Shown in pieces: positions 267-57,133 of a stretch of 64,000 bases of DNA. The stretch lies in assembly GCA_015178975.1 (NCBI GenBank), contig WHVD01000021.1, positions 124,001 through 188,000 of the forward strand, read 5' to 3'. A program made the position numbers and the translations under genes. The DNA is from Hysterangium stoloniferum. Its lineage: Eukaryota; Basidiomycota; Agaricomycetes; Hysterangiales; Hysterangiaceae. The stretch's first letter is position 1, and each line of letters opens with the position of its first letter. The notes below the pieces were generated by a model. That model saw only the letters and a list, made by a program, of their open reading frames with translations, had not been told where the DNA came from and ran no database searches.

Positions 267-1378
267 TTATCCAGCATGATGTAGTATCTCAAGACCTGGG
301 TACGCTGCATATACTGCCCCCCATGCGGCCAGTCGTCGATTGGTGTTCTCGTATGACCTGGCCCATTGTAAAGCGGCATGGTCCGTGGTGAGGAGTACGT
401 GCTCCCCTTCCACGAACGGTTGAAAATGAACCAGGCCTTCCTTAGCAGCTAATGCTTCCCTCTCTGTGGCTGGATAGTTGCATTCCAGTTTCTTGAGGGT
501 ACGACTCCAGTACGCGATAACCCGTTCTACTGTAATGCTTCCCTCTCTGTGGCTGAATAGTTGCATTCCAGTTTCTTGAGGGTACGACTCCAGTACGCGA
601 TAACCCGTTCTACTGTAATGCGAGTATCCTCGAATGCTCTCGCCCAGGAGTCCGTCCAAGTGATCTCGGGAACTTTGGGCTTAAAATGGGTGATGAACGT
701 TGGTACTGGTTTTGACTGCTCGAATGCTGATTTCGCTTGGGTATAGATCTTCGTGTTCTTTAGGTCCCGTAGCGTCATTTTTTGTACTTGTTGCAAACAG
801 CAACCTAGGGCAAAGTCAGAGGCGTCTGTGTAGAGACGGTAGGGCATTCCGATCGTGGGATGTGCTAGGACCGGAGAAGAGCTCAGGGCTACCTTGACAT
901 CGTTAAAGGCTCGTTCCTGATCTACTCCCCAAGACCATCGTGTGCCCTTTTTGAGTAGCGAGAAAAGCGGGGATACAGTCCATGCATAAAAGGGTATGTA
1001 AGCCGAGAAGTACAAAACCATGCCCAGAAAATGTTGGAGTTTGGACACCTTAGTTGGGGTTGCTAGTTCCAATATGGCTCGTACTTTCTCTTGATGGGTC
1101 GAAAAACCTAACCGCGACACCTTGTGTCCAAGCAGGAGGATAGAGTTGTAGTCTACATAGCATTTCTTTGGAGAAAGAGTGATGCCAGCTGAAATTATTG
1201 CTTGTAGGACTCGATCCAGGTGCTCAATATGATCCTCCCAAGTTTTAGAAAAGATTACTATATCGTCTATGTAGACTAGACAGAATATCCACAGATAGGT
1301 GCCAATGTGTTTTGCATGACTCGCTGAAAAATGGAGGGTCCGTTCCTTAATCCGAAGGGCATCCTTCTGAATTGCCAT
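267..1378 (-). pseudogene. Gypsy A reverse transcriptase / RNase H fragment
   Basis: The 527-1378 frame carries the RT catalytic motif YIDD (in LVYIDDIVIFSK) near 1260, the thumb region (..FLGMVLYFSAYIPFY..) and the start of RNase H (YTDASDFALGCCLQQ). The frame then breaks at an 83-bp tandem duplication and resumes in 267-659 (CNYPATEREALAAKEGLVHF, then TTDHAALQW), which is the rest of RNase H. The text just before base 1 side (VHSNVDPLSRLPR) is the usual RNase H/integrase junction. YIDD is intact, so the inactivating lesion is the duplication. Confidence 0.85.
451..623. repeat. 83-bp tandem duplication inside RNase H
   Basis: Unit 458-540 is followed directly by a near-identical unit 541-623, both beginning CCCTCTCTGTGGCTG/A. 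The length is not a multiple of three, which explains why RNase H continues in another frame. It looks like a replication-slippage or unequal-exchange event private to this copy. Confidence 0.9.
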
Positions 1379-1568
1379 AGTCCTCGATGTGATCGAAAGG
1401 CCGTTTTGTGTCAGTCTTCCTCCAGCATTTCCAGTTGAGTAAACCTGGCTAGGGCATCAAACGAGGATAGAACATTGGATCCCGAGAGTGCTTGCATAAT
1501 TTCTGATTATCGAGGCCATGGAAACTCATCCGGGATAGTAAGGCCGTTCAGTTTTTGATAATCAATAA

Positions 1569-2336
1569 CTACGTGAGGTTTATTATTGCGATAGACCACG
1601 AAGGCAGGCACTCCCCAAGGGCTTTTGGAAGGTTCGATGATCCTTGTTGGAACCAGGTGTCCATTTGCTCATCTATGACCTTCCTGTTGGCAGGGGAAGT
1701 TTGAAACATCGGTACAGACACTGGTTGCGCATCGGTTTTCAGCGGGATAGTGGCCTTGCTATCTACTTGCGCCAGTCTGCCGTCAACTCCAAACGCTTGC
1801 ACGTTCTTAGTCAATATTAAGCTAAGGTGAGGCATAACGTCAGGAGGAATGTCAGGTCCTAAGTTGACCAATTTATGCAGATCCTCCGAGGAGAGCTTCT
1901 CCAAGGAGGGAATTTCCGAAGTCTTCGGACCTGTGGGATCGAAGTCATCTACCGTCTCGTTCTCTGGAGATACCATAGATGGTCGAGGACTGGAGGTATT
2001 GTCTTCTTCTAGCCTGGAAATACTTTCTATGAAGTGGGCAATCTTCGAGCTTGCGACTCACATCGATTCCTCTTCTGTTTGGGATCGAGGCTTCTGGGCC
2101 CAAACTCAGGCATCATCAATCAAACCTATGATCTCTCCTCTTCTGACAGTTTGAGGAGTTAAGGTCGGATTAGCCGGTGGTACCATACCTTTTTCTTTAG
2201 AGATAGCGGTTGTGGGGGCAGCAAGGATAGTCCCATCTTTGTTCTGTAGAACTATGCCCTCCACAATCCATTCCCCGTCCTTTAGATCCCCAGTAAAGAT
2301 GGGTATTAGCCTAACCAACTTGGGTTCTATGTGCAA
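1569..2336 (-). pseudogene. Gypsy A pol, protease-RT linker fragments
   Basis: Two short open pieces (2106-2336 and 1569-1976) in different frames bridge protease and reverse transcriptase. The second piece has the usual pre-RT text of Gypsy pol: an LGPDIPPDV.. LSLILTKNVQAFGVDGRL stretch, followed by a methionine- or phenylalanine-rich run before the RT fingers. The RT segment between 1380 and 1570 has no long open frame, so part of the fingers and palm is broken. Confidence 0.6.
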
Positions 2337-3718
2337 TCTTCTAGGGTTCTCGCGACTCTCTCAGTCCGCATGCCCTTGTCGGGTTTGGATGTTAGATTAG
2401 TCGGTGTGATTAGTTCGTCTTCCAGCGAGATCTTGTTGACTGAAAAGGCCAATGGGACAGGTTCGTTGGAGGAGCTGGCAGGAATGAATCCTGTCCTCCC
2501 AGGGAGGATTAATCTTGATCCCAGGGGTTGATCTTGCAATGTTCCTATCTCATAGTTGATATGGAAGTCTTCTCCTAAGAGGATAGGTACGGTCATCCCT
2601 CGTACTACATAGGTTTCTGCGTTGAATCGCAGTTGGGTCCCTTTATCATCCTTAAGGTAGACGGGGTCGTTAATATAACCCAGTACTCGGGCACTCCCGG
2701 TAAGCTGTATTAATCGCAGTTTAAGTCCTTGCTTCAGCTTAGGTTGATCCTTCAGTTTTCGGTAGAATTCCTCTGACATGAGAGACAAATCGGCTCTGGT
2801 ATCCAGTCTAATTTTGATTGGTTCTTCACAATCAGGATTCCCTACTCCTCCGAGTATATGTAGTGCTGAAACACCAACACTAGAATATCCTCCCGGTGGC
2901 TCCCTTTTTCGGTATATGATTGAGGAGTCCTCTTTCATTAGCTTACTGGATCGGGGATATTGTATTCTAGGTCGTTTTACCTCTTTTCTACGGGCTAGTT
3001 CAGCATCCCGACGTAGTTGTCTGTTCAAGATGGTCATGTCTGTTTCCCCCTCCGAGTCCGATTTGTCACTGATCAAGAGGTCGGGAGGAAGTCCGGGGTC
3101 GAAAGGAAAGGTTTCCTCCTCCATGTCGTTCCTTATGTCTTCTATGAGATGTTGCTTGTTAAGGCAGACAACCCGATCGATAGACATTTCCTCGTCCGCG
3201 ATTTCTTCAATCGATGGCAGTATATTGTTTGAGGGACTCTTAAACTCTGACAGACCTTTGTGGTGCTGACAGTGCACTTCCAAACAATCTCCCTTTTCAA
3301 TGAAATCCTCGTGAGATATAGAAATGTATACTTCCCCATGTTGGGGTTCTTCGTCTATGGGTGACCTCTCAATTATGTCTTGATCTTCAGGGGTAACAGC
3401 ATAAGCAGGAATGAAAATTGATTCGCTTTCGACATTATATACTCGCGCTCCTGTACTTAATCCGTAAACTGCCTCATATAGCCTTTGCTCCTCCACCTCC
3501 TCCGAAGGATTCTGCCCGGAGCATAGATTCAATGAGACGTAATGAGCCATTTTACCTGAGTGAGGACAGTCAATTTTGAAATGTTCTGTGCTCCCACAAA
3601 TCCAGCACTCTTTGGGGGGTCTAGTGCTACTCCGTTTGTCACTCCTCTCGAAGAAGAGTTTCCCGTGTGGTTTCCCTCGTGTCGGATCGGTCCTTCCCGC
3701 CCTGGGAGTCCTCGTCAT
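2327..3718 (-). pseudogene. Gypsy A zinc knuckle and aspartic protease
   Basis: Open frame of about 463 residues. Near residues 38-51 is a CCHC knuckle (CWICGSTEHFKIDC: C-x2-C-x4-H-x4-C), which binds RNA in the particle. An acidic linker follows. Near residue 305 is the protease site, read as DTRA where active enzymes have DTGA or DSGA, and further on the ILLG motif expected of retropepsins (PILLGEDF). The Gly to Arg change fits a C to T change at a CpG on the plus strand (near 2800), and should inactivate the protease. The frame difference from gag may be a programmed shift or a mutation. Confidence 0.8.
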
Positions 3719-3757
3719 GCCCTTGTCCTCTATTTCGCTGGAAAGGACCTGATGGGG

Positions 3758-6007
3758 CTAGATGGAATCGGGAGGGGTTGGAGTATGCTCCAGGGCGTCC
3801 AATTCTAATTCGTTTTTTTCCGCGACCATAACTTGAGGTCTAATGGGGCGAAATCTATCTCTATGTGTTTGACTCCAACCATTAATTAGAGCTTCCTGTA
3901 GGTTATTGGCGTATGCTTGGAGGCTCATGATGTCATCTATGGCTTGCCCTTGTATTAAGTATAACCATTCCGTGGGCAGGGTAAGTATTAACCGGCGGGT
4001 CTCCTCTTCCTTTTCTTGGTGGAATCCGTATAGAAATCTGTAGAGTTTAACTCTTCTTTGAATATACTGCATGAGGGTTTCGCGGTCGTGATGGGGCTGG
4101 CAAAACCTCATTTCTTCCCATTCTAGGGACAGGGATTCACGCCATCGTGTACCCAACAACCCTTCGACTATACTCCAAAGGAAAGACCTGTGTGATCGAC
4201 TGAATTCAGTGTGATGCTCATGATCCAAAGTAGTCCACCAGATTTTCGCATTCCCTTTAGGTCGTCTGGGAAGAGCGATGCCTAGAATCGTCATCATGGA
4301 TTCTGAGATTTCCGACAAGCTCATAACATCCATTATGTAGTCCAGTGCCTTAGATTGTGAGCCGTCATATTCAGGGAGATCTGACCATTTGATTTTGAGA
4401 TCATTGGTATTCAAGCTCAACTTCCCAATTTCGGTGTCAGGAGCGGCACTCTTAGTGTTCTTATTAGTGCTTGCTGGGCCTCCTGGATTTCTCGGGTTTC
4501 GCCTTCTCTCGTCCCAGTCCCTTCTGTAATCTGAATCACTGGATCCATCAGAAGAATCCCCAGGTGGCTCTCCTGGGGGAAAGAAGGGGGCCTGTGAAAT
4601 CGGCAAAGGAGGGAGAGTGCTGTTTGGGTAAGAAGTTCCCCTCTCGGGTATTTGTCCAGTGATTCCTTCAACGAATGTGGTAGCGAAGGAAGAACGGTTT
4701 CGATTTGCGACGGATCTAACAGGGACGTTGGAGTGACTAACCGTCGTAAAGGGGGAAGCTACCTCAGACCCAAAGACAACTCTACAGCGGGGAGTATCTG
4801 GCTCTTCCTTCCTCCGTGGTCTGTTTGAAGTTCCTAGTCCGCGGTCGTCCTGGGATGAGATGCCGAGGGTGTTGATTCTGCTGGCCAGAGGGACGGGTGC
4901 GATAGATTTCTCGTGGAGTCTTCCCAAGATCTCCTCCCTCGTATCTTGGGGAAAACTCTCGAGGATAGACTTACAGTTGAGAGAGTGCAGAAAGCTAGTG
5001 CCGGGAGGTCCTTGGAGATCTCGAATGAAGGTTTCGGACGTGTGAGCCGGGGAAGCGGGAACCTGGGTACTAGCATCGTAGGAGTGAAGAACTTCCATAA
5101 ACAGCTTGTCTCATTTCTCACGGCAGCGAATGAGCTTGTGTCGCAGGCTGTGATAGGCAAATGGGAGGTTCGGAGAAGCTTCGTATAGGGATCTTTCCAG
5201 TGTACGCGTATAAAGATACCGGTAATCCACCTTAGCTACCGATCCACCCTGGCCTAGGATCACGTGTAAGATCTGTAACGTGTCATCGTGCATGGCCACT
5301 AGGTCAAGAATCCGTTCGAATAACGCTAGCCTTACACGTCCTCTTCCAGCGACATTAATAGTAACGAGCTCCTCAGACCACTTGGGGAGTTGCTCCGCTA
5401 GTTGATCTATAGTACCGGTTTGGGAAAAGAAAGAATCGGTAATCACGATGCTATTCAATCTGCCTAACCAGACGGACACCTCCTTTGACATGTTGGGGTA
5501 TCTGACTGAATAATCTGAGGCTACTGCGTCAACTTCCTTCTCTTCAATTTGTTCCGAGTAGTATTTATCCCATTTGTCATTTACTGGTTCAGCGAAATAC
5601 ACCTGACCTCTGAAAGGATTCTGTAGCATCACTTGAGGCGGTGGAAATTTCAGACTGGTGTCGTTTCTGTTTGATCGAGCGGTAAGGAGTCCGAGAGTTT
5701 CCGATGACTTAAAATAGGAGTTATTCTTGCTTGTTCCAGTAGAATCACTCACGGGAAGCCCGTGTTCACCTTGTGAGGGCTCCAAGACAGTATCAGTCTC
5801 TTGAGTCATTAGCGATGATTTTCGCGTCGTGACAATACTGGGTAGTCCTAGGTCGGGGTATTCCTTTCTCGTCCGAGGGGCACCCGAAGGCGTAGGAATT
5901 CGGGAGGTTCCACCACTGGTTAAGGTCATAATACTACTACTAGTGGAATGTTCGTGTGGATCGCAGTGAATGAGGGTCCAGCCCGGATCACCACTGTAAA
6001 GGGTCAA
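3758..6007 (-). pseudogene. Gypsy A gag (capsid) ORF with one in-frame TGA
   Basis: Two open segments, 5111-6007 and 3758-5098, are in the same frame and are separated only by a TGA at 5111-5113. The context (Arg-Glu-Lys-stop-Asp-Lys) fits CGA to TGA decay. The N-terminal part is Ser/Thr/Pro-rich. The region around 3850-4300 has the helical look of a Ty3-type capsid: a tryptophan-rich stretch, then EWEEM and MQYIQRRVKLYRFL-like helices. The start at 6007 lies 13 bases inside the LTR, so the true start may be further in. Gag would form the retrotransposon particle. Family assignment rests on position and composition, not on a signature motif. Confidence 0.7.
5978..5994 (-). promoter_or_regulatory. 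Candidate primer-binding site of Gypsy A
   Basis: One base inside the LTR the minus strand reads TGGTGATCCGGGCTGG. TGG at this place is complementary to the CCA end of a tRNA, so the rest may match a tRNA acceptor stem ending in ..GGATCA-CCA. The tRNA identity was not determined. Confidence 0.4.
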
Positions 6008-15896: not shown

Positions 15897-16886
15897 TTAG
15901 TACTTAGTGTAGCCACCCTTTGCCTTTAATACATCTGAAACCCTCCTATGCATACTTTCAATCAAATCCTGACACACCTTTGCATCAATCCTGTACCATT
16001 CATCCACCACCCTCTCCCACAACTCTTCCATCCCCTGGGGTGCATTCTCATACCCTGTCAACCTCCTCTTCAGGTGACTCCATAGGTGTTCAATGGGATT
16101 CAAGTCAGGAGACTGTGCTGGCCATGAGAGAACCCTGAAACCATTTTCTTGGAACCAATTCTGGGCCTTCTTGCAGGTATGCTTGGGGTCATTGTCCTGC
16201 TGGAAGATGATACCATTGGCAGATTTACCATAGTCCTTAAGACTGGCTTGCAGGTCATCCTCCAGAATCTGGATGTAGAGATCCCCATCCATCCTTCCAT
16301 CAATCTTGCATGCATACCCAACCCCCTCCCACAGCATGCACCCCCAAACCATTAAAGACCCACCCCCAAACTTCAGGGTTCCCTCAACCAGTCTGTCACT
16401 CAAGCCCTCCCCTGCCTTTTTCCACACCCACTTCCTGCCATCTGACTCCAGCCTATTAATTTTGGTCTCATCAGACCACACCACCTTCTTCCAATCCTCC
16501 ACAGTCCAATCCTGATGTGCCAAAGCAAAATCCATCCTCTCCTTCCTATGCCTCTTAGAAAGAAGAGGCCTTTTCTTCTTTACCACAGGCTTCATCCCAG
16601 CTGCCTTGAGTCCACGACACACTGTTTGAGGATTGAGTGACTGGTTGGTGATAGTGCAAAGTGCCTTTGTTGCATCTACAGCTGTATCAGCCTTTCCAGA
16701 GCTGATAAGACGTTGTGCAAAATGGATGTTGGCTGTGGAGAGTTTGGAAGGACGACCACAAGAGGACTTAGAAAGGTGGGAACGGTGTTTAGAATGAAGT
16801 CTAGAGATAGTAGCATAACTATAGCCAGTAGAAACTGAAATATGTCTGGCAGAATGGCCAGCATCAAGTAGAGAAAGAATCTCATA
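15897..16886 (-). pseudogene. Tc1-like DD34E transposase of element F, one nonsense codon
   Basis: A continuous frame runs from 16886 down to the stop at 15897. It includes an N-terminal helix-turn-helix region (ILSLLDAGHSARHISVSTGY), a GRP-type linker (SSCGRPSKLS) and the catalytic core. The triad is D in VVWSDETK, D in FQQDNDPKHT and E in PDLNPIEHLW, with 34 residues between the second D and E. A TAG at 16887-16889 cuts the N-terminus from the upstream in-frame text (HPLSTAA), where a Gln codon is likely. Otherwise the core looks intact. It cuts and pastes DNA at TA. Confidence 0.88.
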
Positions 16887-31408: not shown

Positions 31409-32423
31409 TGTTATGGAGTGCATGTGGAGCTTATTGGAGGTTTCCAGAGAAACCCATGGGAAAGCTGGTAGGACTTGGCTTCAGCTTATAGGCTGTGCCC
31501 TCACGAGATCATGACATCCAATTTCAAATGGGCAGACAGGAAACCTGGGGAGTCCAGGGATAGATGATAGGTCAGGAGATGGGGAGGTCAATGGTGGGAA
31601 ACCTGTGGAGGTTGTCAATTGGTCAGGGAGGTTGAGTGATGATAAGTCAGAGGTTGAGTGATGATAAGTCAGAGGTTGAGTGATGATAAGTCAGAGGTTG
31701 AGTGATGATAAGTCAGAGGTTGAGTGATGATAAGTCAGAGGTTGAGTGATGATAAGTCAGAGGTTGAGTGATGATAAGTCAGAGGTTGAGTGATGATAAG
31801 TCAGAGGTTGAGTGATAGGGGAGTCAGAGCCTGTGGGCTCCAACAAGGATGAAGTGGTATTCTCAAAGAGGAGTTTAGAGCAGAAAAGGAACTAAGATTA
31901 CTGGGGGAAATCTAAGCTGATTTTCTGACTGGATTGTATGTACAACAACAGGCAGACAATATACAGTAGACTGTGGAATGTATGTTATACCTAATCCAGT
32001 AATAATGAAAGCTTAAATGGGTAATCATGAAACAAGAATAATAAACACGAAGTTAGGTGTTAGGAATGGGACAGAATGAGGCAGAGTCCAAATTATGACA
32101 GGTCATTAGAATGGGAATGGGGCAGGAGTGGAGTCCAAAACGTGACAGGTCATTTGGCCATAACAGGAATGGGGCTGAGTTAGAGGGTTGACGGGTTTTC
32201 CAAGCAGAGTTGGATGACTGATGCATGGAATGGAGACAGGGATAGACAGGGATGATGTGCACAGGGTCCAGGTGGGTATTCTGGTGACTGATATATGAGA
32301 TAATGAAGGTTGGATTGACATCTGGGTCCCAGCAGGTATTCTGGTTGACTGAAAATGATGTATCTAGACCACAGGTGCATATAGGTTGGTGCCCAGAGTC
32401 CAGCAGGAGTTCTGGTCATAACA
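31409..32423 (-). repeat. Solo LTR, family C, reverse (copy C5)
   Basis: 1015 bp; plus strand TGTTATGGAGTGC..GGTCATAACA. Perfect target duplication TGACC (31404-31408 and 32424-32428). Removing it restores the Copia K frame (..AYEAW-VSTQHNG..). Its extra length is the minisatellite at 31631-31821. Confidence 0.93.
31631..31821. repeat. 22-bp minisatellite in LTR C5
   Basis: Eight full units GTTGAGTGATGATAAGTCAG+AG (31631-31806) and a partial ninth, essentially perfect, so recently amplified. Other C copies have different short repeats at the same place. Confidence 0.95.
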
Positions 32424-34106: not shown

Positions 34107-37100
34107 GTGCTTTACACCCTTTCAGAGCTGCCAGGAGGTTGTGAACCATCCACTAACCAGCCTTCTCTTCCCCTCATACCATTACCCCTCCTCTCTGCAG
34201 GACTTTCCCTCATACCACCACCCCCACCTGCACCCAAGCCCACTCCAGCACCACAGCCAACCCCACCCCCATGCACATCACCTGGCCCCCTTGTCACCAA
34301 CCTCTCTACCCCAATGCCATTGTCCCCTGCGGTGTCAGACACTCCGGTGGTCCTAGGACATAACTGGCTTACCCGCTACAATCTGTTGATTGACTGGATA
34401 GCTAACAGTATAAGATTCCGGACTCCTGTGGCGACTGAGGAAACTGTGCCTGTCTCGGCCTCCACGGCACCTGCAGTCTCGAGGACTCCTGTGATCCCTA
34501 CGGCACCAATGGCTTCCCCGGAACCCACGGCACCTCCATCCATTTCTCTCATTAATGCTGCAGCTTTTATTAGGGCTTCAAAAATGGATGGTTCCCAGGC
34601 GTTCACTATCAACTTAAAAATTGATGAAGCAACTGGACATTTTTCAACCCTGGTATCTGAATCTGAGCAAGCCGCTGACCTAGAAGGCGTCCTGGAGAAA
34701 TATCATGACTTTGCGGATGTTTTTAGCAAGTGAAAAGCTGACTGGCTTCCACCTCACAGAGAATACAACTTAAAAATCAATCTTGAAGATGGTGCCCAGC
34801 CACCCCTAGGACATATTTACCCGCTTTCGTCCATGGAACTATCCGCAATCCATGATTTCCTGGATGAACATTTGTCCATAGGTTTTATCTGACCCTCAAA
34901 ATCTCCTTTTGGAGCACCTGTTCTGTTTGTCAGAAAAAAAGATGGATCCCTTCGACTATGTGTTGATTTTAGAGGACTCAATGCTGTCACCAAAAAGGAT
35001 AAATATCCACTCCCACTTATATCTGACCTGCTCGATGCACTGCGGAATGCCCGGATTTACACCAAAATAGATCTCAAGCATGCCTATCATTTGGTCAGGA
35101 TCGCTGCGGGCGACGAATGGAAAACCACTTTTAGAACCCATTATGGGGCCTTTGAGTGGTTGGTGATCCCCTTTGGACTCACCAATGCTCCGTCTGTTCT
35201 TCAGCATTTTATCAACGACATTTTCTCCAACATACTCGATGTATGCGTATTGTTTACTTGGACGACATTCTTATCTACTCTGAGAATCCCGCGGAACATG
35301 ACAAACAAGTCCGTGTAGTTCTCCGGAGGCTCAGACAACATGGTTTATTCCCAAATGGTAAAAAATGTACTTTTGACACAGACTCCATGGAATACCTAGA
35401 TTTCATGATGGGACCCGATGGACTCCGCATGGACGAAACCAAAGTGCAAGTCATCAAAGATTGGCCCGAACCCTGAAAAGTTAAAGATATACAATCCTTC
35501 CTCGGCTTTGCCAATTTTTACAGACATTTTATCTGTGGATATTCTGACATCACAGTACCCCTTAGCCATCCTCCGCATAAGGGTACTCTGTGGAACTTTA
35601 ACGATAAGTGTCAAAAAGCTTTCAATCTTTTAAAAAATTCTTTTTCTACAGCTCCTATTCTGTCGCATTGGAAACTGGACTTCCTGCTCATTGTCGAAAT
35701 GGATGCCTCAGATTATGCACTTGGAGCCATTCTGTCTATCCAGGACTCCGACGGAGAAGTCCACCCCGTGGCTTTTCTGTCCTGGACTTTTACCAGAGCA
35801 GTGCTCAACTACAATGTTCATGATAAAGAACTTCTGGCAATATTCTCAGCTTTCAAAGCGTGGCAACACTATTTGGAAGGTTCAGGAGCTCCTATTGACG
35901 TTGTAACAGATCACAAAAACCTGGAATACTTTTCTACCACAAAACTTTTGACCCACCGGCAGGCCCGCTGGTCTGAATATCTATCTGCTTTCAACATGAT
36001 TATCCGTTTTCGACCTGGCCGTCTCGGTGGCAAACCTGACACTTTAACTAGACGATGGGATGTCTATCCTAAAGAGGGGAGCAACGACTATGCAACGGTA
36101 AATCCACACAACCTGAAACCTATTTTCACGAATCAACAGCTTACCACATCGGTCCGTGCAACTTTCCTCGTCAATCCCATTGTCTGTGGAATTATCATTA
36201 TGGATATCGAGAAGTTACATCAAGATATTCTATCGGCAATTCCACTAGACCCAGTTACTAATGCTCATCTGGACAATCCCATGGACCCCGATCAACCTTG
36301 GTGGTCTCTTGATCAACATGGTTTCATTAGACTTGACGATCACATCTATGTACCGGACTCCGACGGCCTCCGCCTCAGGATCCTTCAATACAAACATGAT
36401 CATCCACTCTCAGGACATTTCGGGTACAACAAAACTCTATCATTAATAAGAAGAGAATACACTTGGCCCAGACTCCGTGGATTTGTTAAGCACTATTGTA
36501 AACCTTGCACTACTTGTCCCCACTCGAAATCTCAGCGACACAAGCCATATGGCCTTTTGAAACAATTCCTGGTACCGGAACATCCGTGGAATTCTATCTC
36601 TATGGATTTCATTGAACACCTACCAGATTCCAAAGGCTTTTCTGCTATTCTAGTCGTTGTTGACAGATTCTCAAAACAAGGTATATTCATCCCTACATAT
36701 GATACAATTACATCTGTGCAGTTAGCGGAACTTTTCATTATCCACATATTTTCCAAGCATGGAGTTCCATCCCATGTGACTTCCGATTGAGGATCAGAGT
36801 TCGTGTCTCACTTCTTTAGATCCCTCGGAAAATCCTTGGACATGACATTACATTTCACGTCCGGACATCACCCGGAAGGTGATGGACAAACCAAACGCAT
36901 CAACCAGACATTGGAACAATATCTCCACGTATATTGCAACTATCAACAGGACAATTGGAAGACCTTGTTACCACTTGCAGAGTTTGCTTACAACAATGCA
37001 CCTTTGGCCACTACTGGTGTTTCCCTGTTCTTTGCAAATAAAGGATATAATCCAAATATTACAGTACATCCAGAATGAAATCTCACCTCTGTTCGCACTG

Positions 37101-37684
37101 AAGAGTTCACCACGGACCTCCACGAGCTCCACGAGGAACTCCAGACTGCAATATTGTCCGCCCAAGAGCAATACCAACATTCAGTGGACAAACACTGGAT
37201 CCCACCACCCAACTTCAAGATTGGCGACTGTGTTTATGTCAAAGCTCAATTCTTCCGGACTACCCGTCCATCAAAGAAGCTTGCTGAAAAATATTTAGGC
37301 CTGTTTGAAATTATCGCACAAGTAGGTTCAGTTTCTTGGACTCTACGGCTTCTGGATAGCATGCACACGGTACACCTGGTATTTCATGTTTCTATGCTAG
37401 AACCTTGTACTGCTAACACTATCCCGGATCACATGCAATCTCCGCCTCCTCCTGTCGTTATTGACAGAGAACCTGAGTTTGAAATCTCACAGATTTTAGA
37501 TTCAAAAATTGATAAGCGTCAACGCACTTGTAAGCTGCTTTACTTGGTCAAGTGGGCGGGTTACGAGGGCACCAATGAAGAAACCTCATGGATTTTGGCC
37601 ACAGAACTCGGTAATGCCACGGAAATCGTTACTGACTTTCATACAGCTTACCCACTCAAACCTGGACCATTATCTTCTCTCTGA
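34107..37684 (+). pseudogene. Chromovirus L Pol: RT, RNase H, integrase, chromodomain
   Basis: Proline-rich linker and protease end (GHNWLTRYNLLIDW, near 34360), RT (YLDD at 35255-35266), RNase H (VEMDASDYALGA near 35700; TDHKNLEYF), integrase HHCC zone (HDHPLSGHFGYNKTLSLI .. CTTCPHSK), core (SMDFIEHLPDSKGF; DRFSKQ) and chromodomain (LYLVKWAGYEGTNEETSW near 37540). One frameshift lies near 35240. The nonsense codons are all TGA: 34731, 34890, 35474, 36788 and 37076, at or near sites where Arg (CGA) is expected. Apart from these the frame is open from 35156 to 37684, so the copy is fairly young. Chromodomains steer integration to modified chromatin. Confidence 0.92.
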
Positions 37685-45074: not shown

Positions 45075-45254
45075 ACCCGGTTTTAGACATAAATAAATAC
45101 TGAGAATATCCTTGCATGATCCTTAAGACTACATTAAGATCCTGATAAGTTAGTATCACAGTAGACCCGGTTTTAGACATAAATAAATACTGAGAATATC
45201 CTTGCATGATCCTTAAGACTACATTAAGATCCTGATAAGTTAGTATCACAGTAG
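45075..45254. repeat. Perfect 90-bp tandem duplication in LTR O
   Basis: Units 45075-45164 and 45165-45254, both starting ACCCGGTTTTAGACAT, appear identical, so recent. Confidence 0.95.
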
Positions 45255-46127
45255 ACCCTGTAGGTTAGTGTAAATAAAGCATATATTAGTCAAATAGTGT
45301 TTTATTCTATATCTAATCTTTTGACCTGTTTATAAATATTTTTACTGTTTGATAAATAGTCTAAAATATATATAAACTAGTGGAATTGAAGTCGAATCTA
45401 TTTTTGGAATCAGTGAATTGTTATTCATATTTTAGTAATTGTTTTCACAGAAAAAGAACAGCTTACAAAAGCAGCTCTCAAAACCTTCTTTGCAGAGTAG
45501 GGTGCATATATTCAAGTAAACTCTTGACTTCAGGGGTTCTAAGTCTATTCAGACTGCCACTGATTAATATCAAATACTTAAATTATTTTACCTTGCAGTG
45601 AATTGAGTATTTGCACATTTTGATAGAGCACTGGACTCCTTTTTCAAGAATATATTATTAAAATAAGGTTAATACATCACACTCTCCATTGTATATTAAT
45701 TATCTATATTATTAATCTACCTCTCAATCTTGTCTTGCATGATCATTGAAACTCTTTGACATTAACATCTGTAAGCCTTCGTGACTGGTATTAGCCTCTC
45801 ACTTCATCGACAGGGTGAATCTATACTTCATTGAATGAAGCTTCTGTATTCAGTTTTGTAGAATATATTACAATTATTATTCAACTTAATCAAAGGAAAA
45901 TTGATTCGTGTCAGAAGGATAACTTAGTGCTACCATTATTGAAAGCACTACATGGCACAAAGCAAGGAGGCAATGAATGGAGAAAAACTTTGTATGATTT
46001 TATAATGGAACTCATGTGGACATGTTCAGATTTTGACAATGCCATATTTTTTCAAGATGTGGGATGACAGTAGTTGGGCCATGATGGCTTTCTGGGTTGA
46101 TGATACCACATCTGTGGGTGATGAAAA

Positions 46128-46255
46128 TGTTAGATTGAGTAATGCTAGCAGTGTTTCCCAGGGTCAGGTGGTGTAATGGTTAACACCCCTGTTATATATA
46201 CACAAGCCCTGGGTTCAATACCCAGTCTGGCCATTCATGTTTTACACTTTTAACA
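46128..46255 (+). mobile_element. 128-bp LTR-ended mini-element carrying a tRNA-like sequence (P1)
   Basis: TGTTAGATTGAGTAATGC..CACTTTTAACA, with perfect target duplication GAAAA (46123-46127 and 46256-46260) inside Copia M. Removal restores the frame (..SVGDE-NHLLDLEK..). The body is a tRNA-like sequence with 34 bases before and 22 after it. Ends and 5-bp target are those of an integrase-inserted LTR, not of a LINE-mobilised SINE: there is no A-tail. A second copy is at 56959-57087. Confidence 0.88.
46162..46233 (+). tRNA. tRNA-like sequence in mini-element P1 (degenerate)
   Basis: 72 nt. Acceptor halves GGTCAGG and TCTGGCC pair with two G-T pairs; D arm TGGTGTAATGGTTAACAC (A box); T arm CTGGGTTCAATACCCAG (B box). 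The anticodon stem is poor and its loop reads TATATAT. No CCA is encoded. Probably not a working tRNA gene. Confidence 0.6.
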
Positions 46256-46780
46256 GAAAACCATCTTCTAGACCTAGAAAAAGCATTCAGGAAATGGTTT
46301 GGAATTTTGAGCAAAGGAGAAGCTCATTGGATCTTGAGAACAAGCATTCAATGCAACACTGGATCCAAATCCATATTTATATCTCAGAGTGATTATACCA
46401 AAAATATAGCAAAAAAGTTTAACATACAAAATTCCAAGCCCACACAAACTCCCACCCATATCACTTGGGATTAATTTTGCCTCCATTATTTGCCCAGATA
46501 CAGAAGAGGAATGAACTGAAGCTGTGAAACTGCCTTATTGCAAACTTATAGGGAGTTTGATGTTCACAGCAATTGTATCCTGCCCAGACATCATGTATTC
46601 TGTTAACAAACTGTCTCAATATTCATCAAACCCAGCAAGAACACATTGGAACTTAGCTACATAAGTGGAGCCTTCAATACCTATATACTACTCAAGATTT
46701 TGAGCTTCAATTGAGAGGACAAACTCCTTGTTTACATGGATACTCAGATGCCAATTTTGCAGGAGATAATGAGGACAGAT

Positions 46781-56192: not shown

Positions 56193-56958
56193 TGTGGTAA
56201 GGTGGCCAGGCTTACACCAACCTAGTATTTAAGCTCTCAATCTACATCTCTCTGAGAGTGCAAAGCAAGTCCTGGATATTATTTCTTTGGATATTGCTCT
56301 TTGCTAATAAATATGCCTTGGAAGTCAATGTTGACGCAGGAGGGAGTATACGCCAGTACGGTGGACGCGAAGAAAAAAGCGTTTGTCATCACAGTGAAAT
56401 TATTGCTGAACGGCCAAAACTTCAACAGATAACCCAATCACAGTCAGAATTTTATAGTACTAACAGTGGTATTCTGGTTATGCAACTTGTAAAAAATAAA
56501 AATAAAAGTATTTTTGACTGCAGCACATAGATTCTTGTGTAATCCCCCACCGTAGTACTAACAGGACGGTACTCTGGTTGACTGCGCAGATCAGACGGGA
56601 TGCGGTGCTTTCAGAGTCCTATGGCTGCAGACATCAGTCCCCTTGGTCTGCACTCTATATGAGGTCCCATAATAAATATAATAAAATAATAAAATGCACC
56701 TCAGGGAACAGGAGGCCTTTTTGTTTTCTGGGTTGGCCATCCACTACATTAAGACAAATTATCATACATTTCAGTAAAATCTACTTTAGGAATTATTGTG
56801 GCCATGTTTCCCTTGTGTGCAAGACTGTTACCTAGTTAGGTTTTCAAACTCAGACGGCGCCACCCCAAATAGAAGGCACCTATTTCTCGGCGCCATCCAC
56901 CCTTATTGTGCATTTTCAAAGAAAACAAAAAAAATGAAGATCCACTTCTGTTTCCACA
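56193..56958. other. No gene recognised
   Basis: Contains two short related strings (AGTACTAACAGTGGTATTCTGG and the like near 56456 and 56552) but no domain-bearing frame. Confidence 0.3.
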
Positions 56959-57087
56959 TGTTAAAAGTGTAGAAAATGAATGGCCAGACTGGGAATTGAA
57001 CCCAGGGCTTCTGCTTACATAACAGAGGTGTTAACCATTACACCATCCAACCCTAGGAAAGTAGTGCTAGTATTACACAATCTAACA
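56959..57087 (-). mobile_element. 129-bp LTR-ended mini-element carrying a tRNA-like sequence (P2)
   Basis: Reverse-oriented second copy of P1: on the minus strand TGTTAGATTGTGTAATAC..CACTTTTAACA. Perfect target duplication CCACA (56954-56958 and 57088-57092). The two copies match along their whole length and differ in flanks, so the unit itself moves. Confidence 0.9.
56981..57052 (-). tRNA. tRNA-like sequence in mini-element P2 (Thr-UGU-like loop)
   Basis: 72 nt cloverleaf: acceptor GGTTGGA / TCTGGCC (with G-T pairs), D stem GTGT / ACAC, anticodon stem TCTGT / GCAGA, loop TATGTAA, T arm CTGGG-TTCAATT-CCCAG. A box TGGTGTAATGG and B box GGTTCAATTCC are intact. The loop would read anticodon TGT, but position 33 is A rather than the near-universal T, so decoding is doubtful. 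Better preserved than the P1 copy. Confidence 0.7.
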
Positions 57088-57133
57088 CCACATTATTTGT
57101 CCACTACTTCATTCCAAGCCAGCCGTAACCGAC

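Follow-up and report, generated by a model that had tools for sequence, protein, structure and literature searches.

A tRNA-bearing 128-bp unit in Hysterangium stoloniferum as the probable LTR of a Helenus-type miniature retrotransposon

The window analysed here, a stretch of 64 kb from the genome of Hysterangium stoloniferum (Agaricomycetes, order Hysterangiales; assembly of 111 Mb in 554 contigs), contains two opposite-strand copies of a unit with TGTTA..TAACA ends, one of 128 bp and the other of 129 bp, flanked by 5-bp duplications (GAAAA and CCACA, respectively). The initial annotation had described the ends, lengths and duplications in these terms, and all proved exact. We assign both copies to one Helenus-type element, H1, as long terminal repeats (LTRs) of its subfamilies A and B, with the following features:

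46123..46127, + strand: target duplication GAAAA, 5 bp, left of copy 1 (flank reading)
46128..46255, + strand: copy 1, solo LTR of H1 subfamily A, 128 bp (self match 100%)
46162..46233, + strand: tRNA-like part of copy 1, decayed, no tRNA call (placed by comparison with L009:291-362)
46169..46179, + strand: box A-like TGGTGTAATGG (LTR columns 42-52)
46212..46222, + strand: box B-like GGTTCAATACC (LTR columns 85-95)
46248..46251, + strand: TTTT, candidate weak Pol III terminator within the LTR (from sequence; putative function)
46256..46260, + strand: target duplication GAAAA, 5 bp, right of copy 1 (flank reading)
56954..56958, + strand: target duplication CCACA, 5 bp, low-coordinate side of copy 2 (flank reading)
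56959..57087, - strand: copy 2, solo LTR of H1 subfamily B, 129 bp (self match 100%, next 97% over 1-129)
56981..57052, - strand: tRNA-like sequence of copy 2 (ARAGORN tRNA-Thr(TGT); Rfam tRNA 51.2 bits; cloverleaf-like minimum-energy fold)
57088..57092, + strand: target duplication CCACA, 5 bp, high-coordinate side of copy 2 (flank reading)

The two copies are 88% alike over 102 ungapped bases, and the best non-self match of copy 1 in the genome search is 96% over 1-128. The sequence surrounding copy 1 is a Copia element with further stops and frame breaks. Removal of copy 1 had been said to restore its frame, and with the 133 inserted bases subtracted, the two flanks, translated separately, are indeed in phase. 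On the left, a 60-aa piece gives a weak Pfam RVT_2 match (E 0.00099; 19.2 bits, below the 31.6 cut-off), and on the right a 70-aa piece gives no Pfam match and is Copia-like by eye only. No empty site emerged from a search with copy 1 and its flanks, which was swamped by LTR matches, nor did one emerge when the flanks were aligned with a paralogous stretch nearby, a comparison that yielded one 135-base match at 72.6%, far from the insertion. The primer-binding site (PBS) GGTTATGGGCC is absent from the whole window at up to one mismatch; there is thus no internal region, and both copies are solo LTRs, which would have arisen by recombination between the LTRs of full elements.

Several other features share the window. 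A 90-bp perfect tandem duplication (45075-45254) lies near copy 1. A 5S rRNA gene (56515-56632, - strand; Rfam 82.5 bits), apparently dispersed rather than arrayed within this window, is separate from copy 2 and about 330 bp from it. A Tc1/mariner-type transposase piece occupies 15897-16622 on the - strand (DDE_3, E 2.7e-15; HTH_Tnp_Tc3_2), and Gypsy-like reverse transcriptase, RNase H and integrase pieces occupy 527-6007 (-) and 34107-37684 (+), with a Pfam basis for 527-1378 and 35699-36790 and by position only for the remainder. A tandem repeat of 22-bp units (GAGGTTGAGTGATGATAAGTCA) spans 31628-31825.

First, we consider the tRNA-like body of the unit. The proposal of a tRNA-like cloverleaf stands for copy 2 and for many other copies, with tRNA-Ile(TAT) or tRNA-Thr(TGT) predicted by ARAGORN in 18 of 21 scanned loci and Rfam tRNA scores of 46.6-51.2 bits for H1 copies. 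It fails for copy 1, the very copy in its title, where neither program calls a tRNA and the minimum-energy fold is not a cloverleaf; the locus used to place its decayed tRNA-like part, L009:291-362, is a tRNA by both. We take the motifs TGGTGTAATGG and GGTTCAATACC to be the putative box A and box B of an internal promoter from which RNA polymerase III would transcribe H1. Within the H1 sample, these boxes show no significant excess of conservation over other LTR columns (40 of 128 circular shifts are as low). The H1 LTR also contains TTTT runs, at which Pol III could terminate short of a full-length RNA, and this makes it a question how transcription would extend to the 3′ LTR. One practical consequence is that tRNA counts are inflated in genomes with such mobile LTRs.

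Second, the unit is part of a larger whole. The initial annotation had thought of a solo LTR of a very small element and had pictured two direct units enclosing a PBS and a purine tract; this form exists, as direct LTR pairs 283 bp apart arranged LTR(128)-155-LTR(128), 411 bp in all. The 155-bp internal region begins with the PBS GGTTATGGGCCCC right after the 5′ LTR and ends with the purine tract AAGGGAGTG directly before the 3′ LTR, which starts TGTTAG. Scoring the best 40 of 403 candidates for copy 1, 40 of 128 for the internal region and 40 of 521 for copy 2, we obtained 113 chains, reduced to 89 elements after removal of repeats by flank; being best matches, the fetched copies lean to the young. 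They comprise 34 single LTRs, 33 LTR-INT-LTR elements (30 of exactly 411 bp), four LTR-INT-LTR-INT-LTR tandems and 18 partial or chimeric forms; a PBS follows two of the 34 single LTRs, those of L064 and L068, which therefore do not count as true solo LTRs. An exact 5-bp duplication flanks 64 of the 71 complete copies (29/34 single, 31/33 full, 4/4 tandem) and is absent in seven, as compared to a mean of 0.975 of 71 when right flanks are shuffled, and 62 different sequences occur among the 64. Only one pair of the 71 (L069/L078) has shared flanks; counted as one duplicated locus, it leaves 63 of 70 distinct sites with an exact duplication. The two LTRs are of equal length in 31 of the 33 full elements, being identical in 26 and differing by one mismatch in four and by three in one, which points to recent H1 activity. 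Genome-wide, at up to three mismatches, we counted 309 H1 LTR ends and 76 internal regions, and none in backward controls. Three further arrangements were seen: fragments of a more diverged H1 relative (LTR end and internal part) lie directly beside an intact LTR at L021:13-149; an H1 with its own duplication GCAGG is inserted into the LTR of an older H1 at L092:835-1664; and a tandem H1 at L048:1369-1901 begins within the internal region, its flanks sharing the six bases AAGAAT.

Third, the PBS connects H1 to potential sources of enzymes. Presumably GGTTATGGGCCCC fits the anticodon region of initiator tRNA-Met, a 5′ fragment of which would then prime minus-strand synthesis, as in copia and Ty5; the single pattern tried for the host initiator tRNA gave no match in the genome. 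The 16-mer PBS context AACAGGTTATGGGCCC occurs 631 times in the genome (control, 0), and several of the PBS sites listed have an RVT_2 match, among the best 150 of 1270 candidates, some 2.9-3.4 kb downstream. Copia elements of two types in the same genome, F1 and F2, carry RVT_2 and this identical PBS context, and like H1 start with TGTTA and make 5-bp duplications. They differ from H1 in their autonomous length, with open frames of 1284-1416 aa, and in their LTRs, which measure about 305-352 bp in the four elements read at both ends, each with its duplication (C24, ATAAG; C1, AATCT; C13, CTGTA; C43, GCCAT). These LTRs share only short matches with that of H1, and ARAGORN called no tRNA in the Copia ends tested (L107, L108 and L113-L115). 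H1 is probably mobilised by Copia machinery, with reverse transcriptase and integrase supplied in trans by F1- and F2-type elements; the initial annotation had likewise proposed a substrate of an LTR-retrotransposon integrase.

A second family, H2, has an LTR of 251 bp and an internal region of 66 bp, with identical LTRs in the one full copy read; within its LTR lies a tRNA-like sequence, predicted as Tyr-ATA by ARAGORN and scoring 48.6 bits with Rfam. Among scored matches, H2 LTRs and F2 Copia cluster on contigs C534, C35, C543, C60, C14 and C109, possibly reflecting a heterochromatic region or targeted insertion. H2 is also found joined to F2 at the common PBS, exactly at the LTR/PBS boundary. 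One such hybrid (C35:906200-911900) consists of an H2 5′ LTR, an F2 internal region with a 1385-aa open frame and an F2-type 3′ LTR, between AGAGA and AGAGA within an AG-rich stretch; a second, on C14, has the unmatched flanks GACCA and GGAAC. A pattern for the H2 end followed by the F2 internal start occurs at 50 places, six with H2 ends and 44 with F2's own, and is biased to H2, since copies with F2's own LTR already spend the two mismatches permitted, which H2 joins do not; when only joins without any further mismatch are counted, there are two H2 versus 44 F2. Of the six H2-end joins, those on C35 and C14 were read across the LTR and that on C256 adjoins an H2 LTR match, while C259 has H2 internal sequence upstream of the H2 LTR, a tandem form, and lacks the expected 3′ end at the place read; two of the six rest on ten bases each. 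H1 itself takes part in one comparable join. In L105 (L025/L105), an H1 internal region plus LTR (5433-5715) sits between the 120-bp 5′ LTR and the PBS of a gag-only element, whose 265-aa Copia-type gag (Pfam E 3e-29; 148 matches to relatives) is separated from the 3′ LTR by only about 340 bp, and GCCAT stands on both sides of the whole. It is the fifth INT-LTR chimera and has a foreign 5′ LTR with a matching duplication; a search for such an LTR around the other four (L056, L064, L066 and L071) gave none.

For these hybrids we favour an origin in particles containing both RNAs, by reverse transcription or by recombination of cDNA. Alternatively, elements already integrated might have recombined ectopically across their 13-17 bp of PBS homology to give the joins to Copia, without any co-packaging, and the mobiliser of H1 could be another family. 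The unmatched flanks of one of the two H2/F2 5′-LTR hybrids and the tandem form on C259 are what such recombination might leave behind; the matching flanks of the C35 hybrid, albeit in an AG-rich stretch, the GCCAT on both sides of the gag-only chimera and the precision of the joins at the LTR/PBS boundary all argue against it, and we regard this alternative as rather unlikely, though a serious contender.

Additional information comes from four insertions (L030, L039, L050 and L057) that each measure 365 bp. In all four the 5′ LTR is missing its first 46 bases, so that the insertion opens with TAATGG, and each has a duplication of its own on both sides (GTTTT, GAAGG, ATCAC and GTCCG, respectively). 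Their left end is equivalent to base 46174 in copy 1. Just before this point in intact LTRs lies AGGTGGTG, which resembles the purine tract GGGAGTG, and both are broken after GTG. The shared start base of four insertions with independent duplications suggests that plus-strand mispriming at a second tract, inside box A, would give the 365-bp form, which is our preferred reading. Could the left end instead be the 5′ end of an RNA, or a reverse-transcriptase stop? A cDNA extended to an RNA 5′ end would look alike, with one start base and independent duplications. Against this, the base falls within box A, not a place at which Pol III would be expected to start, and AGGTGGTG is similar to the true tract, down to the break; we consider an RNA end or enzyme stop rather unlikely. 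Mispriming and the hybrids can be brought together in a tentative proposal, for which we would claim somewhat less than even chances: in shared particles, strands pass between the miniature tRNA-LTR elements and Copia cDNA at the PBS that both possess, and the tRNA-derived box A, being similar to the purine tract, serves as an additional plus-strand primer that gives rise to the recurrent 365-bp product. If so, the genome keeps physical records of trans-mobilisation, and the tRNA-like promoter shapes the reverse-transcription product besides transcription.

Two other explanations for the unit as such can be dismissed briefly. A tRNA-derived SINE moved by a non-LTR retrotransposon would account for the tRNA-like head with box A/B motifs and for the short length, yet the initial annotation had already remarked that the unit has neither the A-rich tail nor the longer target copies normal in SINEs, and we reject it on the paired-LTR structure, with LTR-INT-LTR forms and TG..CA-type ends, duplications of 5 bp rather than long and variable ones, and AAAA at the end of none of the 71 complete copies, making this origin extremely improbable. 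It is just as improbable that the copies are tRNA genes of the usual kind, or a tRNA locus spread by segmental duplication: the ARAGORN calls are what this would predict, but the flanks are distinct (the single shared pair apart), each copy has its own 5-bp duplication, and the tRNA-like part is always within the same mobile LTR in the elements read.

Very probably, then, the 128-bp unit represents the LTR of a Helenus-type TRIM, a miniature LTR retrotransposon that is non-autonomous, with the route proposed above by Pol III, tRNA primer and Copia as its likely way of moving. Given the young copies and the named likely helpers, the dependence on Copia, the use of the primer and the role of the tRNA-like promoter are testable in this fungus. 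The tRNA-bearing TRIMs are a published but computational class, and here they occur in a genome with young copies.

How do these elements compare with known systems? SMART and TRIM elements are short LTR elements without coding sequence; they have a PBS and a polypurine tract (PPT) and are moved in trans. H1 resembles them in all of these respects, its movement in trans being the probable one described above, and differs in having a tRNA-like part in its LTR, which is unlike those of the candidate helpers beyond short matches.

Cassandra of plants is a TRIM with a 5S rRNA sequence in its LTR (per Kojima, 2024, PMC10886601). Like H1, it combines a small-RNA gene sequence in the LTR with a putative Pol III promoter; unlike Cassandra, the present unit gives tRNA and not 5S with Rfam, and identity with Cassandra is rejected on this ground. 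The initial annotation's idea of a tRNA counterpart of Cassandra in a fungus is apt, and such elements have already been published as Helenus, a group of TRIMs whose LTRs contain a tRNA-like sequence (Kojima, 2024, Biology 13:119, PMC10886601), the only paper on Helenus that we found.

As described in the main text of that paper, Helenus elements range from 311 to 1263 bp, and the fungal ones have 5-bp duplications and mostly a tRNA anticodon-loop PBS, including the initiator-tRNA anticodon type, that is common with Copia (Kojima, 2024, PMC10886601). The likeness to H1 extends to the size (411 bp falls within the range), a pair of short LTRs enclosing a small non-coding internal region, the tRNA-like LTR, the presumed type of PBS, the PPT before the 3′ LTR, the length of the duplications, a PBS region but not an LTR in common with Copia, the presence of several families per genome, and solo LTRs. 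The order Hysterangiales is absent from the main text and Table 1 of the paper, and its main text makes no mention of Copia hybrids or of a recurrent 5′-truncated form (PMC10886601); the H2/F2 hybrids, the gag-only chimera join and the recurrent truncation are thus beyond that main text, without our claiming that they are unpublished in general. Since all essentials of the 128-bp unit fit Helenus, it is a new member of the class, and H1 and H2, as placed by their anatomy against the published description (Kojima, 2024, PMC10886601), are new Helenus families.
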